Assembly (NCBI GenBank): GCA_903919125.1
Contig: CAIXGS010000031.1
Location: 1 to 38,265, forward strand
Direction of reading: 5' to 3'
Length of the DNA: 38,265 nt
DNA from: an uncultured Spartobacteria bacterium
GTDB lineage: Bacteria; Verrucomicrobiota; Verrucomicrobiia; Chthoniobacterales; Chthoniobacteraceae
Position 1 is the stretch's first letter. Each line of letters begins with the position of its first letter. The notes under the pieces were generated by a model. The model did no database searches, was not told where the DNA came from, and was given only the letters and a program-made list of their open reading frames with translations. A program made the translations under genes and the position numbers. Below, piece by piece: positions 1 through 33,136 of this stretch.

Positions 1-27
1 CACCGGATGCGATACAAAAAACGCCAC

Positions 28-44
28 GCATCCCATAGGGATGC
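28..44. repeat. Palindromic GCATCCC repeat, copy 1
   Basis: GCATCCC and GGGATGC form a perfect 7-bp stem around a 3-nt loop (ATA). This is the left-most of four related palindromes in the first 600 bases. Confidence 0.7.
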
Positions 45-142
45 CAGCCCTTCCATGCTGCTGTGCCATTGTTCTTTCGCGCCGACGCACAACGTGTTTC
101 CCACACAAGATGGCTTGTTTTGCCCTTAACGCCTCGCCGCTA

Positions 143-159
143 GCATCCCTCTGGGATGC
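143..159. repeat. Palindromic GCATCCC repeat, copy 2
   Basis: It has the same perfect 7-bp stem as copy 1, with loop TCT. It is followed at about 178-245 by text with further small inverted repeats (GGTGGTG near 183, ATGCCTCCGGCAT near 229). Confidence 0.7.
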
Positions 160-290
160 GGGCCGTTCCGGCCTGACAAACCGGTGGTGTCGTCGCGTCG
201 CTCCTCAACCTCCGGCTAATGGCTTTCATGCCTCCGGCATGGCAAACCGCAGCGTCCCCACGACGACTTTGGGCGACTCACCTAGTGACC

Positions 291-309
291 AAAGTGTCTG
301 TCCCCTGCG
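291..309 (+). repeat. GTGTCTGTCCC core, copy 1 (core 294-304)
   Basis: This is the first of twelve copies of the core GTGTCTGTCCC (reverse complement GGGACAGACAC) in the window. It is joined directly to the tiny-peptide segment 310-376, and the whole 291-376 segment recurs inverted at 19838-19935. Confidence 0.85.
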
Positions 310-325
310 TAGCCTCGCTGAGAAA

Positions 326-376
326 ATGAAAGAACGTGCAAGAACGTGGCTGCTGTTGGTGGTGCTGTGGGTGTAG
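326..376 (+). CDS. Possible 16-residue hydrophobic peptide in a repeat
   Basis: An ATG frame encodes MKERARTWLLLVVLWV and stops at TAG. A GAGAAA stretch just upstream could weakly bind the ribosome. The inverted copy of this repeat (19838-19894) encodes an 18-residue version, MKERERTWLLVLLVVLLV, so the length change between copies is exactly two codons and the start, charged head, hydrophobic tail and stop are kept. A charged head with a leucine/valine tail fits a tiny membrane peptide such as a type I toxin or leader. The alternative is chance: the tail is a run of CTG/TTG/GTG triplets, and triplet slippage also preserves frame. Expression is unproven. Confidence 0.25.
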   Translation: MKERARTWLLLVVLWV

Positions 377-378
377 AG

Positions 379-406
379 GGGGCAAAAGTGTCTGTCCCTT
401 CCGGCC
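379..406 (+). repeat. GTGTCTGTCCC core, copy 2, in an exact 28-bp repeat
   Basis: The core is at 388-398. The 28 bases are exactly the reverse complement of 18884-18911. This copy lies only 2 nt beyond the stop codon of the tiny-peptide frame, whereas at the right-hand locus the matching two segments are about 0.9 kb apart. Confidence 0.85.
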
Positions 407-439
407 CCACACCACCGGTTTCGGAGGCAGAAACCGCCT

Positions 440-8675: not shown

Positions 8676-9668
8676 ATGCCTGAGGACCCAATTCACCAAC
8701 CAAACGACAAGCTCCTCAAGGCCACGTTCTCCGTCCCGGAGAACGCCCGTGCCTTCTTCGAAAACCATCTCCCCAAAGAACTCACCGCCGCCCTCGACTG
8801 GACTTCCCTCGCGCTCGAACCCTGCTCCTTCATCGACCCACAACTCACCAGTTCCGAGAGCGATCTGCTCTTCCACATCACGCTCCAACAAAGCGACGCC
8901 TTCCTCTACCTGCTCTTCGAACACCAAAGCTCCGAGGACCCACGCATGGCCCTTCGCCTGCTCTCTTACATCCTGCGCATCTGGGAGCGCTTCGCTCAAA
9001 ACCATCCCCCGCCCGCAAAACTTCCCTCGATTCTTCCGATCGTCCTGGCACAAGGCAAACGCCCTTGGAAAACGTCCACACGCTTGGAGGACCTCATCGA
9101 TTTACCGCCGAGCGTCGCGCAAATTCTGCGCCCATGGCAGCCCACGCTCGCCTACCATCTGCTCGAGCTCGTGCGCATTCCCTACGACGCCTTTGCTGGC
9201 ACGCCGGAAGGCATCCTCACCCTGCGCGCCCTCAAAGCCGAGCCCATGAATGAACTCCTCGAAGATGTCATTTGGGACGAGTCTCTTTTATTCTCAATTT
9301 CGGAGAGTGCTTTGGAGCGGATTCTGCGCTACATTCTCAATGCAGACGTCAGCATCCCTCAGCTCAAGGAACGATTGGGCAAGATTCAAGCCAAACCCCT
9401 GCAATCCAAAACCATGACACTCGCCGATCGACTCAGAGAAGAAGGCAAACTCGAAGGCAAACTCGAAGGCAAACAAGAGGGACTATCCGAGGGACAATTA
9501 CGCGCTTTCAGAACTGCTGTGTTGCGCGCCTTGGAGATCCGACACGGCGCTTGTCCGGACGGAATCCGCGAGGCCCTCGAGTCCATCGACGATCCAACTC
9601 GCCTTGAGAGACTCATTGAAAGTGCTTTTCGTTCTGAATCACTCGAAGCCTTCGCGCAAAACCTTTAA
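8676..9668 (+). CDS. Rpn family PD-(D/E)XK nuclease (transposase_31-like)
   Basis: This 330-residue protein matches the Rpn/YhgA family (formerly putative transposase, PF04754): DKLLKATF near the N-terminus, then SDLLFHITLQQSDAFLYLLFEHQSS (about 62-86, broken here by the family's acidic residues and the E-x-Q motif EHQ), and a helical C-terminal half. E. coli members are DNA endonucleases that raise recA-independent recombination. Residues about 250-268 are a short tandem EGKLEGKLEGKQEG tract typical of the family's variable tail. The 3' 288 bp (9396-9683) are duplicated at 19939-20214. A repeat core lies 78 bp after the stop. The ATG at 8676 has no clear ribosome site. The catalytic residues appear intact. 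Confidence 0.82.
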   Translation: MPEDPIHQPNDKLLKATFSVPENARAFFENHLPKELTAALDWTSLALEPCSFIDPQLTSSESDLLFHITLQQSDAFLYLLFEHQSSEDPRMALRLLSYILRIWERFAQNHPPPAKLPSILPIVLAQGKRPWKTSTRLEDLIDLPPSVAQILRPWQPTLAYHLLELVRIPYDAFAGTPEGILTLRALKAEPMNELLEDVIWDESLLFSISESALERILRYILNADVSIPQLKERLGKIQAKPLQSKTMTLADRLREEGKLEGKLEGKQEGLSEGQLRAFRTAVLRALEIRHGACPDGIREALESIDDPTRLERLIESAFRSESLEAFAQNL

Positions 9669-18883: not shown

Positions 18884-18911
18884 GGCCGGAAGGGACAGAC
18901 ACTTTTGCCCC
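18884..18911 (+). repeat. GGGACAGACAC core, copy 6, in an exact 28-bp repeat
   Basis: The core is at 18892-18902. The 28 bases are the exact reverse complement of 379-406. This copy bounds the DUF3368/UPF0175 module on its 3' side. Confidence 0.9.
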
Positions 18912-19024
18912 GTCTTCACTTTTGCCCACTTGTTCCCCTGCGACGATACAGCGCGCGCGAGCTGCGAAAACGGAGAGGACAGCAAAATAGGCGTCAGAAC
19001 GTGCGTTGTGACGTCATTGGGTGT

Positions 19025-19519
19025 TCATTCCCCAGCCAAGCGCAGGCACTCGGTACGGAGCCGGGTGCTGATGAAGAGTCCGTTCGCCATAATGCGGTCA
19101 AGTGGCACCCTGACGTCGGTGATCAGCGAGAGCTTTTTAGCTCGGAGTAGCAGGGCACAGGTGCCAGCCACTTCGAAGCCGAAGACATCCATGGCGACAC
19201 GACGTCCCCGCCGTTCGTCCCCGAGCACGCCAGAAATGCCTTGCTCCTTGGCAATCTGTAAAACTGAAGCTTCTCCAGGATCGAGAATCGCGGCCAACAT
19301 CGGATCAAGCGGCGGCGCTGGCAGGATTTCGAAGCTGGACAAGACATTCTCGATTTCCGCCGAGTCACCCGCGTCTTTGGCTCGAAGCTCTGCCGCGACC
19401 GCAGTGGTTGTGAGCACTTTTGGAAACAACCTCGCGAAAAGATGCCCCAAACCCGCCTTGCACAGCGAGATTACCGGGCTGGTGTTGCAGACAACAGCTC
19501 GCTGGAAAAACTCAGACAT
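19025..19519 (-). CDS. DUF3368 PIN-like toxin
   Basis: This 164-residue protein matches the DUF3368 family: VVCNTSPVISLCKAG at the start (Asn12 in the place of the first PIN acid, as is common in the family), DPGEASVLQIA (Glu83), LGDERRGRRVA (Asp101), VAGTCALLLRAKKLSLI, and a C-terminal RLAGE. DUF3368 proteins are PIN-fold nucleases found as toxins next to UPF0175 antitoxins, as here, with an 8-nt overlap (19512-19519). The frame is full length. The module lies between two repeat cores at 18892 and 19921. Confidence 0.85.
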   Translation of the reverse strand: MSEFFQRAVVCNTSPVISLCKAGLGHLFARLFPKVLTTTAVAAELRAKDAGDSAEIENVLSSFEILPAPPLDPMLAAILDPGEASVLQIAKEQGISGVLGDERRGRRVAMDVFGFEVAGTCALLLRAKKLSLITDVRVPLDRIMANGLFISTRLRTECLRLAGE

Positions 19520-19763
19520 GAGCGAACTCTAGCTCCATTTCTTCCTCATCCATGTCAATGACAGCCACGCCGTTCCGGCTAGCCTCATTCAGGAATGCTA
19601 CGCGGCCCATGCCCGCCATCTGGGCAGCCTGCCCGGAGGTGATCTCCCCCAGCTCGAAGTATTTCAAGGCCAGAAGGAACTTGCTGCGCTGTTCCAACTC
19701 CGTTCGGCTCTTTCCCTGCAAGGTCAGACAGGTCGGAAGGTCGATGGCGAGTGTGGCTGTCAT
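19512..19763 (-). CDS. UPF0175 antitoxin
   Basis: The product has 83 residues from the ATG at 19763 (MTATLAIDLP); the frame reaches further upstream, but that part is unlike the family. UPF0175 landmarks are KFLLALKYFELGEITSGQAAQMAGMGRVAFLNEA, broken here as ALKYFELGEITSGQAAQMAG and an F-L-N-E helix, which form a short helix-turn-helix. It would bind and restrain the overlapping DUF3368 toxin and probably repress the operon. Confidence 0.83.
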   Translation of the reverse strand: MTATLAIDLPTCLTLQGKSRTELEQRSKFLLALKYFELGEITSGQAAQMAGMGRVAFLNEASRNGVAVIDMDEEEMELEFAHV

Positions 19764-19837
19764 GCCTCCAGCATAGCCCACGGCCACCCGATCGGCAAGA
19801 AGCCGTCTTTCACTCGTTGATCTCTACAATTTCCATG

Positions 19838-19894
19838 CTACACCAACAGCACCACCAACAGCACCAGCAGCCACGTTCTTTCACGTTCTTTCAT
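19838..19894 (-). CDS. Possible 18-residue hydrophobic peptide, second copy
   Basis: Encodes MKERERTWLLVLLVVLLV followed by TAG. It is the inverted copy of 326-376 and is two codons longer with the same reading frame. It precedes the DUF3368/UPF0175 module on the same strand by 74 bp, so it could be a leader peptide of that operon if translated. Low-complexity triplets make chance preservation possible. Confidence 0.25.
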   Translation of the reverse strand: MKERERTWLLVLLVVLLV

Positions 19895-19935
19895 TTTCTC
19901 AGCGAGGCTAAGACACGCAGGGGACAGACACTTTC
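19838..19935 (-). repeat. Inverted copy of 291-376, with GGGACAGACAC core, copy 7
   Basis: The core is at 19921-19931. Read on the minus strand, the order is core, CGCTGAGAAA block, peptide frame, as on the plus strand at 291-376; differences are two indels of 3-6 nt in the triplet tract, a 6-nt insertion after CTGCGT, and a few substitutions. Confidence 0.9.
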
Positions 19936-19938
19936 TCC

Positions 19939-20214
19939 CCCCTGCAATCCAAAACCATGACACTCGCCGATCGACTCAGAGAAGAAGGCAAACTCGAAGG
20001 CAAACAAGAGGGACTATCCGAGGGACAATTACGCGCTTTCAGAACTGCGGTGTTGCGCGCCGTGGAGATCCGACACGGCGCTTGTCCGGACGGAATCCGC
20101 GAGGCCCTCGAGTCCATCGACGATCCAGCTCGCCTTGAGAGACTCATTGAAAGTGCTTTTCGTTCTGAATCACTCGAAGCCTTCGCGCAAAACCTTTAAA
20201 ATTGCGGAAAAAGG
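19939..20214 (+). pseudogene. Detached 3' fragment of the Rpn nuclease gene
   Basis: A near-identical copy of 9396-9683, lacking one 12-bp unit and with three substitutions (two T to G, one A to G). It keeps an open 80-codon frame from MTLADRLREEG to the stop but none of the nuclease core. Both ends lie close to repeat cores (19921-19931 and 20227-20237), and in the full gene it has a core only on the right (9746). It is a recent segmental copy, probably without function. Confidence 0.9.
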
Positions 20215-20226
20215 TGAGAACCGCAA

Positions 20227-20240
20227 GGGACAGACACTTT
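20227..20240 (+). repeat. GGGACAGACAC core, copy 8
   Basis: AACCGCAAGGGACAGACACT, then TTCACC. It is placed 12 bp after the end of the Rpn fragment and 52 bp before the 3' end of the next gene. Confidence 0.85.
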
Positions 20241-20291
20241 CACCTGAAAAATGCCGGCCGGCGAGGGAGGGCGCGTGCAACCTGATGAAGT

Positions 20292-20837
20292 TTAATAACT
20301 CATCTTCGCAAGGCTGCTGATCGAAAGCGTTTTTTGGTTTAGCAAATTCGCAAGCTCGCGCCCTTCCGCGGAAAGTTCAAATAAGCCGCTCTCGCTGAAC
20401 ATCGCGATAATTTCGTGACTGCGAACATCACCCCCGTTCAGCCGCGACGCGCCGGAGTGGAAAAACTCCGCATAGGCCGGTAACGCGCTAAACTCGGGAA
20501 TCGCAGCGAGGCATTGCCACAGAGAAACGAGCTTTTCTTCATGGTCCAAGCGCGAGGGATCGTCAGATTCATCGACGCAGTTTTTGAAAACACGCAGAAG
20601 CCAGTCCGCAAGTTGCATCCGGTCTTGGACTTGCTGGAATCCGGTGAGCAGCCGTTTTTTGGATCCAAATGAATAATCCCGGCCGTCGTCTCCTTCCAAA
20701 ACCTCCGTCTGGAGCACCTTCACGGCGTCCCGCTTGAATTTCTCAAAAGAGGACGGGGAGAGTTTAGGCAACAGCGCGAAGAGCAACTCTTCCACGGTAA
20801 AAACCACGCCGGAATAAGAATAAACATCGAGTCCCAT
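20292..20837 (-). CDS. Protein of unknown function, 181 residues
   Basis: I do not recognise a family. The start MGLDVYSYSGVVFTVEELLF resembles small alpha/beta proteins of unknown role; the rest is mostly helical and acidic (LLPKLSPSSFEKFKRDAVKV, QLADWLLRVFKNCVDESD, LFELSAEGRELANLLNQKTL). It has no signal peptide or membrane helix. It is complete, with an ATG at 20837, but no clear ribosome site precedes it. It occupies its own interval between repeat cores at 20227 and 21123 together with the truncated coiled-coil frame. Confidence 0.7.
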   Translation of the reverse strand: MGLDVYSYSGVVFTVEELLFALLPKLSPSSFEKFKRDAVKVLQTEVLEGDDGRDYSFGSKKRLLTGFQQVQDRMQLADWLLRVFKNCVDESDDPSRLDHEEKLVSLWQCLAAIPEFSALPAYAEFFHSGASRLNGGDVRSHEIIAMFSESGLFELSAEGRELANLLNQKTLSISSLAKMSY

Positions 20838-20885
20838 AAAGGTTGGATTTTATCGCAAGGCCGATGCCGTCGATTGTCAAAAAGT

Positions 20886-21113
20886 CTAAATCTCAGGAGC
20901 CGCTCCGCCGGTTAATTCAGTGATTTCGACCTTTAACTGGGCGGCTTCTTTTTCCAGCGATTCAACCTCGGCTTCGATCGCCGTGGCCTGATCCCTGGCC
21001 GCTTCTTGGATAAAGCCGGGGCGCTTTTTATTCAACTGATGCAATTCGTAGGCAGGATCCTCCGGCAACGTTTCAAGTGCTTGAAGGGTCGCCAGGATCA
21101 GCGTTTCCAGTGT
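20886..21113 (-). pseudogene. 5'-truncated coiled-coil frame
   Basis: The last 70 or so residues (LATLQALETLPEDPAYELHQ, then a long Glu/Ala/Lys coiled coil ending LTGGAAPEI) read as protein, but the frame has no ATG and its upstream part is translated from the repeat at 21114-21181. I infer a small coiled-coil gene cut off at its 5' end by that repeat. The family is unknown. Confidence 0.45.
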
Positions 21114-21181
21114 GAGACGCAGGGGACAGACACTCCGGTAAAACCCCTGTAAAAAAGGATGTTCTATTTCCAACCTCCGCG
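21114..21181 (+). repeat. ~68-bp dispersed repeat, family B copy 1, with core copy 9
   Basis: Contains the core GGGACAGACAC at 21123-21133 followed by TCCGGTAAAACCCCTG and a run of A before GGATGTTC. It recurs at 22915-22983 with a handful of differences. Confidence 0.85.
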
Positions 21182-21255
21182 TCTCCGCGCCGTGTGATAA
21201 ACTCTTTTTTAGTCGATGCTGAAAAATACCTTAACATTCTCCAGTGCGACCAAAA

Positions 21256-21266
21256 GTGTCTGTCCC
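21256..21266 (+). repeat. GTGTCTGTCCC core, copy 10 (inverted relative to neighbours)
   Basis: The surrounding CAAAAGTGTCTGTCCCCTGC resembles 291-309. It lies 33 bp beyond the 3' end of the PIN_3 toxin gene and is the only copy in 18884-22934 with this orientation. Confidence 0.85.
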
Positions 21267-21298
21267 CTGCGTGTCTCTGCTACGCCCCCGATGACGGC

Positions 21299-21727
21299 TC
21301 AAGGCGTCAACGTCGCGCGCAAGTCCGACAAGAAAGCCACCGGTTCGCAGGTGATGAACTCAGGATAAAACACGCCCACATCCTTCAAATGCTCGTCATA
21401 CGTCACCAGATGCGAGGCGGCTCCGTTGAGCGCCAGCAGAAGGAAGGCCACGTCATCCGCATCTATCGGGTAATGTTGGAAGTGGTAGAACCGGATCGGT
21501 ACTTCCTCGCCGTATTGCAGCAGATCAGCCACGAATCGCTCCACCTTCAGACAATCAATGCCTTTCTTCAGAAGCTTCTCGGCGTATTCCGTCACTACAT
21601 CATCGCTAACCAGCCAAATGAACTCGCCAGAAGTCCATCGCGTGATGACCTCCACATTCGGACTTTGGGGATGCACCGACCGACCGGCAGCCAGCACTAC
21701 ATTTGTATCCAGAACAGCGCGGAGCAC
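21299..21727 (-). CDS. PIN_3 family toxin (COG1569-type)
   Basis: This 142-residue PIN-domain protein has Asp7 in VLDTNVV, Glu47 in VVTEYAEKL, DADDVAFLLLAL (Asp89, Asp91, Asp92) and TYDEHL (Asp111), the acidic set expected of an active nuclease. The start is GTG at 21727, placed so that the first strand (MLRAVLDTNVV) is complete. The likely antitoxin gene ends 9 nt upstream on the same strand. Confidence 0.85.
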   Translation of the reverse strand: MLRAVLDTNVVLAAGRSVHPQSPNVEVITRWTSGEFIWLVSDDVVTEYAEKLLKKGIDCLKVERFVADLLQYGEEVPIRFYHFQHYPIDADDVAFLLLALNGAASHLVTYDEHLKDVGVFYPEFITCEPVAFLSDLRATLTP

Positions 21728-21736
21728 GGGTTGAAC

Positions 21737-22018
21737 TTACAGAGTTTCGGTGATCGCAGCGAAGTTCTGCTCAAAGGCTCGCATTGCCTCAGCGCGATCC
21801 GTTCCCTCAGTCTTCCGCTTCTCCACGAGTGCCCGAGCCCGTTGTACCACGGCCAGAGCCTCAGGGCTGTAGCGTTGCTGACGACGCTCATTCATTGCCA
21901 CCTCCATCCGAATGAAACGCAGCAACCGCTCAGGCAAACCAGGCACTGCCCGTGCCTTCGCCGATAGTTCGGCAGGCAGCTCGAGGAGATCGGTCAATGT
22001 CGCGTCCAACGTGCTCAT
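21737..22018 (-). CDS. Probable antitoxin of the PIN_3 module
   Basis: This 93-residue, mostly helical protein has the pattern LLELPAELSAKARAVPGLPERLLRF near the start (broken here after 20 residues as LLELPAELSAKARAVPGLPE and RLLRFIRMEV) and RYSPEALAVVQRARALVEKR in the middle. Many PIN_3 toxins are preceded by such short helical proteins. The assignment as antitoxin rests mainly on position and size. The ATG at 22018 is clear. Confidence 0.65.
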   Translation of the reverse strand: MSTLDATLTDLLELPAELSAKARAVPGLPERLLRFIRMEVAMNERRQQRYSPEALAVVQRARALVEKRKTEGTDRAEAMRAFEQNFAAITETL

Positions 22019-22128
22019 GGTAGGATATTAACCGGGCCCTAAGATTGCGACAAGGCGAAACAAAGAGCCAAAAGCTATAAGCGCTCCGAATCAGCATGCC
22101 CTCGTGCTTTTAGGCGCTAAAGAAGGTG

Positions 22129-22153
22129 TGAGACGCAGGGGACAGACACGCCG
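22129..22153 (+). repeat. GGGACAGACAC core, copy 11
   Basis: The core is at 22139-22149 and is preceded by GTGTGAGACGCAG, the same left context as at 21110-21122. It separates the PIN_3 module from the MazF/RelB module. Confidence 0.85.
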
Positions 22154-22290
22154 CCGCCGCCTCTCCGCCGCTTGCAAGCAACGCCAGAATTTACCCACGT
22201 TCGGAATGCGGCCATGACGCATTTCCGGCGTTGGGTGTAGTGACTTGTTCGGCAAGGCGAGCAAAGATGGTTCACCAAAGACTTCAGATC

Positions 22291-22614
22291 CTAAACTTCG
22301 AGAGATAACGCAAACCCCAGAGCGCTTCTGATCTGTGATAAATAAGCTTCTGATATATTGCCAAGTTTTCGGTGTAATTCGTGATGCGAAATGGCCTGTA
22401 ACCCTTGCACATTTACAAAGCTCTCAGATTTCAGGAAATTTGGATTACCAATAGCGATCTCGTACTTACTGCCTCTTGAAGATGTTGTAATTGGTGCACA
22501 AATAGCGAGGGCCCTAGGTGGATCTGAATCTTCCCTTGAAAGAACAATCATTGGGCGGACCTTTCCGGCGATTCCCAAATCAACGAGATAAACTTCACCG
22601 GGCTTCGTCGTCAT
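22291..22614 (-). CDS. MazF/PemK-type toxin
   Basis: This 107-residue endoribonuclease of the MazF/PemK fold has PGEVYLVDLG at the start, KVRPMIVLSRED (Arg19-Pro20), a PITTSSRGSKYEI segment, and VNVQGLQAISHHEL. These toxins cut mRNA at short sequence motifs. The full-length frame begins with an ATG inside the end of the upstream antitoxin gene (20-nt overlap, 22595-22614). Confidence 0.88.
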   Translation of the reverse strand: MTTKPGEVYLVDLGIAGKVRPMIVLSREDSDPPRALAICAPITTSSRGSKYEIAIGNPNFLKSESFVNVQGLQAISHHELHRKLGNISEAYLSQIRSALGFALSLEV

Positions 22615-22840
22615 AAAAGGACTCTAAAACGGCGTTGCGCATGGAAGAGGGGAGCAAAATGTCTGAGTTGTCTTCTTTGATTTTGAGCTCGAAAGGTAAC
22701 CCTCTCTGAATTCTGACTTGGTGCAGGAAGATGCGAATTGCATCGGCAGTGGTGAGACCCAACTGACCGAGGATCGCTTCCGAATCCGTTTTAAGGCGGG
22801 AGTCGACCCTAGCGCGAACGAAGGTTTCTTTTAGAGCCAT
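22595..22840 (-). CDS. RelB/DinJ-type antitoxin
   Basis: The product has 81 residues from the ATG at 22840 (MALKETFVRARVDSRLKTDS). It has the RelB/DinJ ribbon-helix-helix pattern: VRARVDSRLKTDSEAILGQL, GLTTADAIRIFLHQV and RGLPFELKI. The C-terminal tail (SSMRNAVLESFYDD) would bind the toxin. The usual partners of this family are RelE or YafQ; here it overlaps a MazF-type toxin. Confidence 0.85.
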   Translation of the reverse strand: MALKETFVRARVDSRLKTDSEAILGQLGLTTADAIRIFLHQVRIQRGLPFELKIKEDNSDILLPSSMRNAVLESFYDDEAR

Positions 22841-22914
22841 GTCCGAATGTGGTCCAAATGTGCCCAAAGCGCAATGTTGATCTTCTGAATGTGCAAATTT
22901 AAATTAGCATTGGA

Positions 22915-22983
22915 GAGACGCAGGGGACAGACACTCCGGTAAAACCCCTGAAAAAAAAGGATGTTCCATTTCCAAACTCCGCC
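22915..22983 (+). repeat. ~68-bp dispersed repeat, family B copy 2, with core copy 12
   Basis: The core is at 22924-22934. It is a near-copy of 21114-21181 and continues directly into the family C repeat at 22986. Confidence 0.85.
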
Positions 22984-32718: not shown

Positions 32719-33136
32719 TTAGCGCGCATAGAAAAGAAACCCTACCGCTCCGGACTCTCTCCGGTGTCATTGACTTTGGATTCAACGGGGACCGAAAACG
32801 GCTCCTTCACGCGCGCGCACTTCAGGCGGTTGACAGCCCTGTCACCGAGTCCAGCCGAGCGAGGTTCTTTTGGAAACTAAGCGCCCCCTTGAGAAAGGCG
32901 TCTCGGGCAAACGGATTCTGAATTGCAAGCTCCACCGTCCCGTCCGGATTTCACAACCCGCTGCCGCCATGCTTGCTTCCCGGCAGAATCTAAAGCGTTA
33001 GCAAAATCCCTGCGCGCCTGCACGCCGCCGCGAGTTCTTCGGACTCTTAGCGCGCCCCGCGACGATAAGGCGTGCGCGAGTTGCGGAAGCGAAGCGAAAA
33101 GCAATTTCCTTAATTCTTATTATCCTTAACCCCCCG
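32719..33136. other. Intergenic region between convergent genes
   Basis: Nothing coding is supported. The right half (about 33030-33110) contains CGCGACGATAAGGCG and GCGCGAGTTGCG blocks that resemble 18938-18970, and ends with AAAAGCAATTTCCT, the end block of family A at 5985-5998. These are probably decayed repeat pieces. No clear terminator with a T run was found for either gene. Confidence 0.5.

Follow-up and report, generated by a model that had tools for sequence, protein, structure and literature searches.

Core-bounded units with and without a UPF0175/DUF3368 toxin-antitoxin module in a Spartobacteria genome

Organization of the two loci

The window analyzed here, a 38,265-nucleotide stretch of DNA from an uncultured Spartobacteria bacterium, contains two loci in which a short dispersed repeat, referred to as the core, is followed by a segment named B (B' at locus 2) and then by a second core-bearing unit (Table 1). 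In the first-pass annotation the order core, segment B and 28-bp core-bearing end was placed at 291-406, with about 2 bp between the last two, and this was correct to the base, the dinucleotide AG separating B (311-376) from 379-406. The same segments, in the same order and orientation, had been reported on the minus strand at 19935-18884, and they were recovered by alignment at 19934-18884, as was the identity between 379-406 and 18884-18911. At locus 2, 926 bases lie between B' and the 28-bp end, and this gap holds predicted UPF0175 and DUF3368 genes, adjacent or overlapping on one strand in the manner of a toxin-antitoxin module. Of the two loci, only locus 2 holds the module.

Table 1. Features of locus 1 and locus 2 in the window; gene assignments are Pfam predictions
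Feature	Position	Strand	Basis or remark
Core 1 of locus 1 (AAAGTGTCTGTCCC)	291-304	+	start of inter-locus homology
Segment B of locus 1 (so-called tiny peptide)	311-376	+	two genome copies
GTGTAG microhomology, locus 1	371-376	+	overlap of left and right homologies at the join
Core 2 unit of locus 1, AGGGGGCAAAAGTGTCTGTCCCTTCCGGCCCC	377-408	+	379-406 shared exactly with locus 2
Core 1 of locus 2	19921-19934	-	core match and alignment
Segment B' of locus 2	19838-19909	-	alignment
GTGAAG, second microhomology copy, locus 2	18914-18919	-	alignment
Core 2 unit of locus 2	18884-18911	-	28 bases equal to 379-406; homology stops here
Predicted UPF0175 antitoxin-type gene	19512-19766	-	PF03683, E 3.7e-18
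Predicted DUF3368 toxin-type gene	19025-19519	-	PF11848, 27.9 bits (cut-off 27.3)
Dispersed-repeat remnant (another repeat of the genus), behind the module	18936-18988	-	sequence match
3' fragment of an Rpn/Transposase_31-type gene (full copy at 8676-9668)	19939-20217	+	starts 4 bases away from core 1

The two loci are homologous, with limits at the cores: similarity extends from the first A of core 1 to 8 bases past core 2. On the left, 291-376 pairs with 19934-19838 (minus strand) over 84 identical bases, interrupted by two substitutions and by one gap of 5 and one of 6 bases; on the right, 34 of the 36 bases of 371-406 are identical to 18919-18884.

Locus 1 is flanked (window 1-285 and 409-617) by a dispersed repeat with several copies of at least 90% and by an inverted copy of about 73%, and since it lies near the contig end among repeats, a misassembly is possible there. 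Locus 2 lies in a toxin-antitoxin island (18884-22935) in which the UPF0175/DUF3368 module, a PIN_3 gene and a PemK/RelB-type pair are found together within 4 kb, with cores interspersed; one more core, at 20227-20240, comes after the Rpn-type 3' fragment.

Rarity of the shared segments

Segment B has two matches in the 4.34-Mb genome, namely locus 1 and locus 2, and among 39 relatives, compared as draft genomes, 37 lack an 18-base stretch taken from it, the other two having one match each with one mismatch. The objection anticipated in the first-pass annotation, that both segments might be abundant in the genome, thus applies to the core (94 exact copies, with none for the reversed control) and not to B. 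The 28-bp end has two additional copies, at C54:7856-7883 (100%) and C83:185-214 (93%). The copy at C54 is a solitary unit placed directly after a stop codon; the gene upstream of it also occurs in G003 and G009 without a core and with a different downstream sequence, so that no clean unfilled site is available for comparison.

This solitary copy bears on a different reading of the pair, in which core 2 units arrived on two unrelated occasions, once behind B at locus 1 and once behind the module at locus 2, the common order being a coincidence helped by the clustering of cores. All 32 bases of the locus 1 unit (377-408) coincide with C54, two of them differing from locus 2, and core units can insert alone, to judge from the arrangement at L067:3082, where a 36-base core unit with CTTTTTCG on both sides interrupts a host repeat that is intact in five other copies. 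The right-hand homology between the loci, however, reaches position 371, past the 32-base unit, and according to our arithmetic the chance that one of the four copies of the 28-bp end lies no more than 1 kb downstream of the second B and in the matching orientation is about 4e-4, or about 0.01 if such ends are confined to the core-near 3% of the genome. Independent arrivals are considered rather improbable.

The reading of B as a tiny peptide probably does not stand. A small toxin gene was considered and rejected, given that its start, GAGAAAATGAAAGAA, is a repeat sequence found behind other cores, where it is usually followed by AATGAACACTG; in the relative G005 these 27 bases lead into a different sequence. 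The so-called tiny peptide is probably not a gene.

The core repeat family

Cores are dispersed in their own genome as singles, dimers and groups, including clusters and arrays, and the family was found in 11 of 97 genomes, this one included. Within the window, the core 12-mer has 12 matches when one mismatch is allowed (0.17 expected). Tight tandem arrays of 3-8 cores with an irregular spacing of 22-90 bases, often by a Y1 transposase gene, were observed in G020 (L104-L106) and G003 (L114, L116, L117). A literature search with the letters of the core retrieved titles unrelated to bacterial repeats.

No covarying stem formed by the two core flanks was detected over 132 units, and five of the six core units tested folded no better than their shuffles, the sixth being from G011. 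In that genome (L120-L122) a clear hairpin, GTGGGGAAA...TTTCCCCAC, holds the core in its loop, which differs from the situation in the genome of the window. Around 141 cores, direct repeats indicative of target duplication were as frequent as in controls, with one single 8-base case. A consistent inverted orientation of neighboring cores was also considered, and the counts (10 vs 5 at less than 150 bases, 27 vs 21 overall) were not convincing. The upstream flank together with the first core bases is duplicated nearby in 8 of 135 cases at a threshold of at least 12 of 14 positions (0.07 expected), and core 2 of locus 2 belongs to this group. These duplications involve the 11-24 bases before a core and lie just upstream, as at window 9746 and 18902, L074:2417, L089:541 and L082:5485.

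Cores as segment borders and neighbors of toxin-antitoxin genes

Cores stand where shuffled segments end. Of 338 unique repeat ends in the 284 kb surrounding cores, 87 fall within -30 to +45 of a core vs 15.5 expected, a count in which the ends are partly non-independent and the repeats multicopy. Truncated Y1 genes (C69; G003 C160) and the Rpn-type fragment of locus 2 likewise end beside cores. Copies of a MITE-like element, about 105 bases long and ending in GAATGGCACTTAGTTAAG (L075:2228-2360, L072:12485-12610, L098:3414-3527, L095:1170-1285), are flanked by core-like sequence on both sides, as if inserted into cores.

PIN genes are enriched near cores, with 12 of 32 PIN matches located at most 1 kb from an exact core (1.05 expected, p 2e-10). 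In five relatives, 3 of 34 PIN matches are equally close to a core, the expectation being estimated at a few tenths of a match. This proximity may partly reflect a shared preference for genomic islands.

Association of cores with Y1/HUH transposase genes

Cores directly precede Y1 transposase genes. In G000, G003 and G020 one long Y1_Tnp subtype starts a few tens of bases behind GGGACAG(A/G)CAC, and a repeat with the motif GGGGWSAS occurs close upstream of a RAYT-like Y1 gene in G000 (two at C69 and one at C36), G003 (three) and G020 (three); variants of the arrangement are present in G013 and G004. Among the Y1 copies of G003, mutual similarity begins at the core. The one copy seen at full length, at C36 of G000, carries a second, inverted GGGGACAG end about 1.1 kb further downstream. 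This inverted end is degenerate at C9 of G020, and was not found in two G003 copies or in G013 and G004.

The Y1 genes match PF01797, and their translations contain NHFH and YIDLNP, which correspond to the HUH and Y---NP motifs of TIRYT (subclass 2.1). A C-terminal extension is present, in which no Bac_DnaA_C or HTH-like domain was matched in Pfam at E up to 1, and the match to the NCBIfam REP transposase model is below its cut-off; for these two reasons the protein is called TIRYT-like rather than a proven TIRYT. Its TIRYT counterpart is probably subclass 2.1 of PMC6006769. The arrangement at C36 is that published as TIRtrons, whose end motif is GGGGWSAS (Di Nocera et al., 2013, PMC3733652). 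As read from its sequence context, the core family most likely represents the end repeat (TIR) of a TIRYT-like Y1/HUH transposase.

Comparison with known systems

With TIRtrons (PMC3733652) the cores share a Y1/HUH gene close behind a repeat whose GGGGACAG end fits GGGGWSAS, as well as the dispersal of single, paired and grouped copies. Unlike TIRtrons, neighboring cores here are direct as often as inverted, they bound toxin-antitoxin modules and gene fragments, and the transposase has no HTH or DnaA-like C-terminal domain in Pfam. REP, REPIN and BIME sequences with their RAYTs are similarly short, intergenic, dispersed, clustered and linked to a RAYT-like gene, whereas the units of this genome have no hairpin headed by GTAG or GTGG, the only clear hairpin being that of the G011 units. 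The IS200/IS605 family shares the Y1 transposase, ends that need not be inverted and the lack of a general target duplication, but the unit described here is devoid of its own transposase, and its ends do not form hairpins. A DDE transposon or MITE would be expected to leave the target-site duplications that were not in excess at 141 cores.

Toxin-antitoxin passengers separated by short repeats are also a feature of integron gene cassettes, and cores could accordingly be imagined as the attachment sites of an integron-like array. This is extremely unlikely, as cores occur on both strands at irregular spacing, have neither an attC-like structure nor a covarying stem, show no folding advantage over shuffles in most cases, and are linked to Y1 transposase genes.

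Gain or loss of the module

When the left flank of locus 2, taken as far as GTGTAG, is fused to its right flank from ACGGGGC onward, the product reproduces 365-406 of locus 1 at all but two of 42 bases, both of them substitutions. In this way every base of locus 1 is accounted for apart from single substitutions. The imperfect 6-bp pair GTGTAG/GTGAAG is the only direct repeat at the locus 2 gap. The extraction of the joins proposed in the first-pass annotation thus succeeded in predicting locus 1, while the accompanying search for target duplications at the pair yielded none beyond this microhomology. Its view that the module was inserted into, or lost from, such a site is retained in part: judged on the sequences, filled and unfilled copies of a core-bounded unit are present, but the data do not support a site dedicated to insertion of the module. 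What had been taken for a "site" is a unit, duplicated or mobile, between two cores of the same orientation and not a fixed toxin-antitoxin insertion site.

The sequence gives no direction, because an insertion with a 6-base duplication and a deletion at a microhomology leave the same pattern. Insertion of the module into the locus 2 unit, with GTGTAG/GTGAAG as a 6-base target duplication, would agree with the near-repeat on both sides and with the finding in G003 of a UPF0175/DUF3368 pair 92% identical over 792 bases, accompanied by neither B nor cores. The module therefore also moves independently of cores, and gain at locus 2 stays a serious, if less probable, alternative to loss. In this specific form gain is nevertheless doubtful, given that the inserted stretch brings no recombinase and includes a remnant of another repeat behind the module, that cores in general are without target duplications, and that the comparable HicA case is one of loss. 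In G003 another dispersed repeat lies in front of the pair, and it is a remnant of that family that lies behind the locus 2 module; a similar remnant accompanies the same pair in G009. This dispersed repeat of the genus, CCGTTTCCGCAGCTCGCGCGCGCGGTATCGTCGCGGGGCGCGC, occurs at 18936-18988 and 33055-33104 of the window and in more than 20 copies in G006.

Further loci pair a copy carrying an insert beside a core with a copy lacking it, the HicA pair of the same genome being the clearest. At C4 (L067:2100-2542) a predicted HicA gene (PF07927) and a small upstream partner lie behind the core GGGGGACAGACACTTTCCTTACTCC; at C79 (L097:3175-3261) the same core end runs directly into a 45-base stretch (100% identical) from the interior of hicA, after which comes an inverted core. 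Since this hicA fragment has neither end of the gene, the C79 copy arose by loss through internal deletion, and this tilts the locus 1/locus 2 pair towards loss, though without settling it. Loss of the module from locus 1, by deletion at the GTGTAG/GTGAAG microhomology, is slightly favored over gain.

Proposed model and implications

The account that we find reasonably probable considers both loci as copies of one two-core unit, the cores as TIRs of the TIRYT-like type and the module as a passenger, with loss at locus 1 the likelier event. To judge from the family of the neighboring transposase, the enzyme would cut or copy single-stranded DNA at cores. Segments between cores would be duplicated and moved as units, the toxin-antitoxin module would travel within such a unit, and the copy at locus 1 would later have lost it by the microhomology deletion. 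A shared unit is supported by the two-copy segment B, the same neighbors, the low divergence, the limits at cores and the flank join that predicts locus 1. The model further draws on the crowding of repeat ends and PIN genes at cores, the Y1 genes behind cores, the published end motif, the HicA loss and the solitary core unit at L067:3082. Counting against the model, the bounding cores are direct whereas published TIRs are inverted, the inverted downstream end is present only at C36 and one G020 gene, Pfam gave no DnaA-like or HTH domain, the core-free module in G003 indicates that other means of movement are possible, and locus 1 may be misassembled.

More tentatively, a TIRYT-like HUH transposase might mobilize toxin-antitoxin modules in trans, solitary end repeats, paired directly or in inverted orientation, making any enclosed module a passenger and thereby building and eroding toxin-antitoxin islands. 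The spread of toxin-antitoxin genes within the chromosome, outside plasmids and integrons, is poorly understood, and a genome whose toxin-antitoxin pairs lie between repeats of the kind that end a domesticated-type HUH transposase, and whose filled and unfilled copies are closely similar, constitutes a concrete and testable system. It would also lend TIRYT end repeats a visible effect on gene content.
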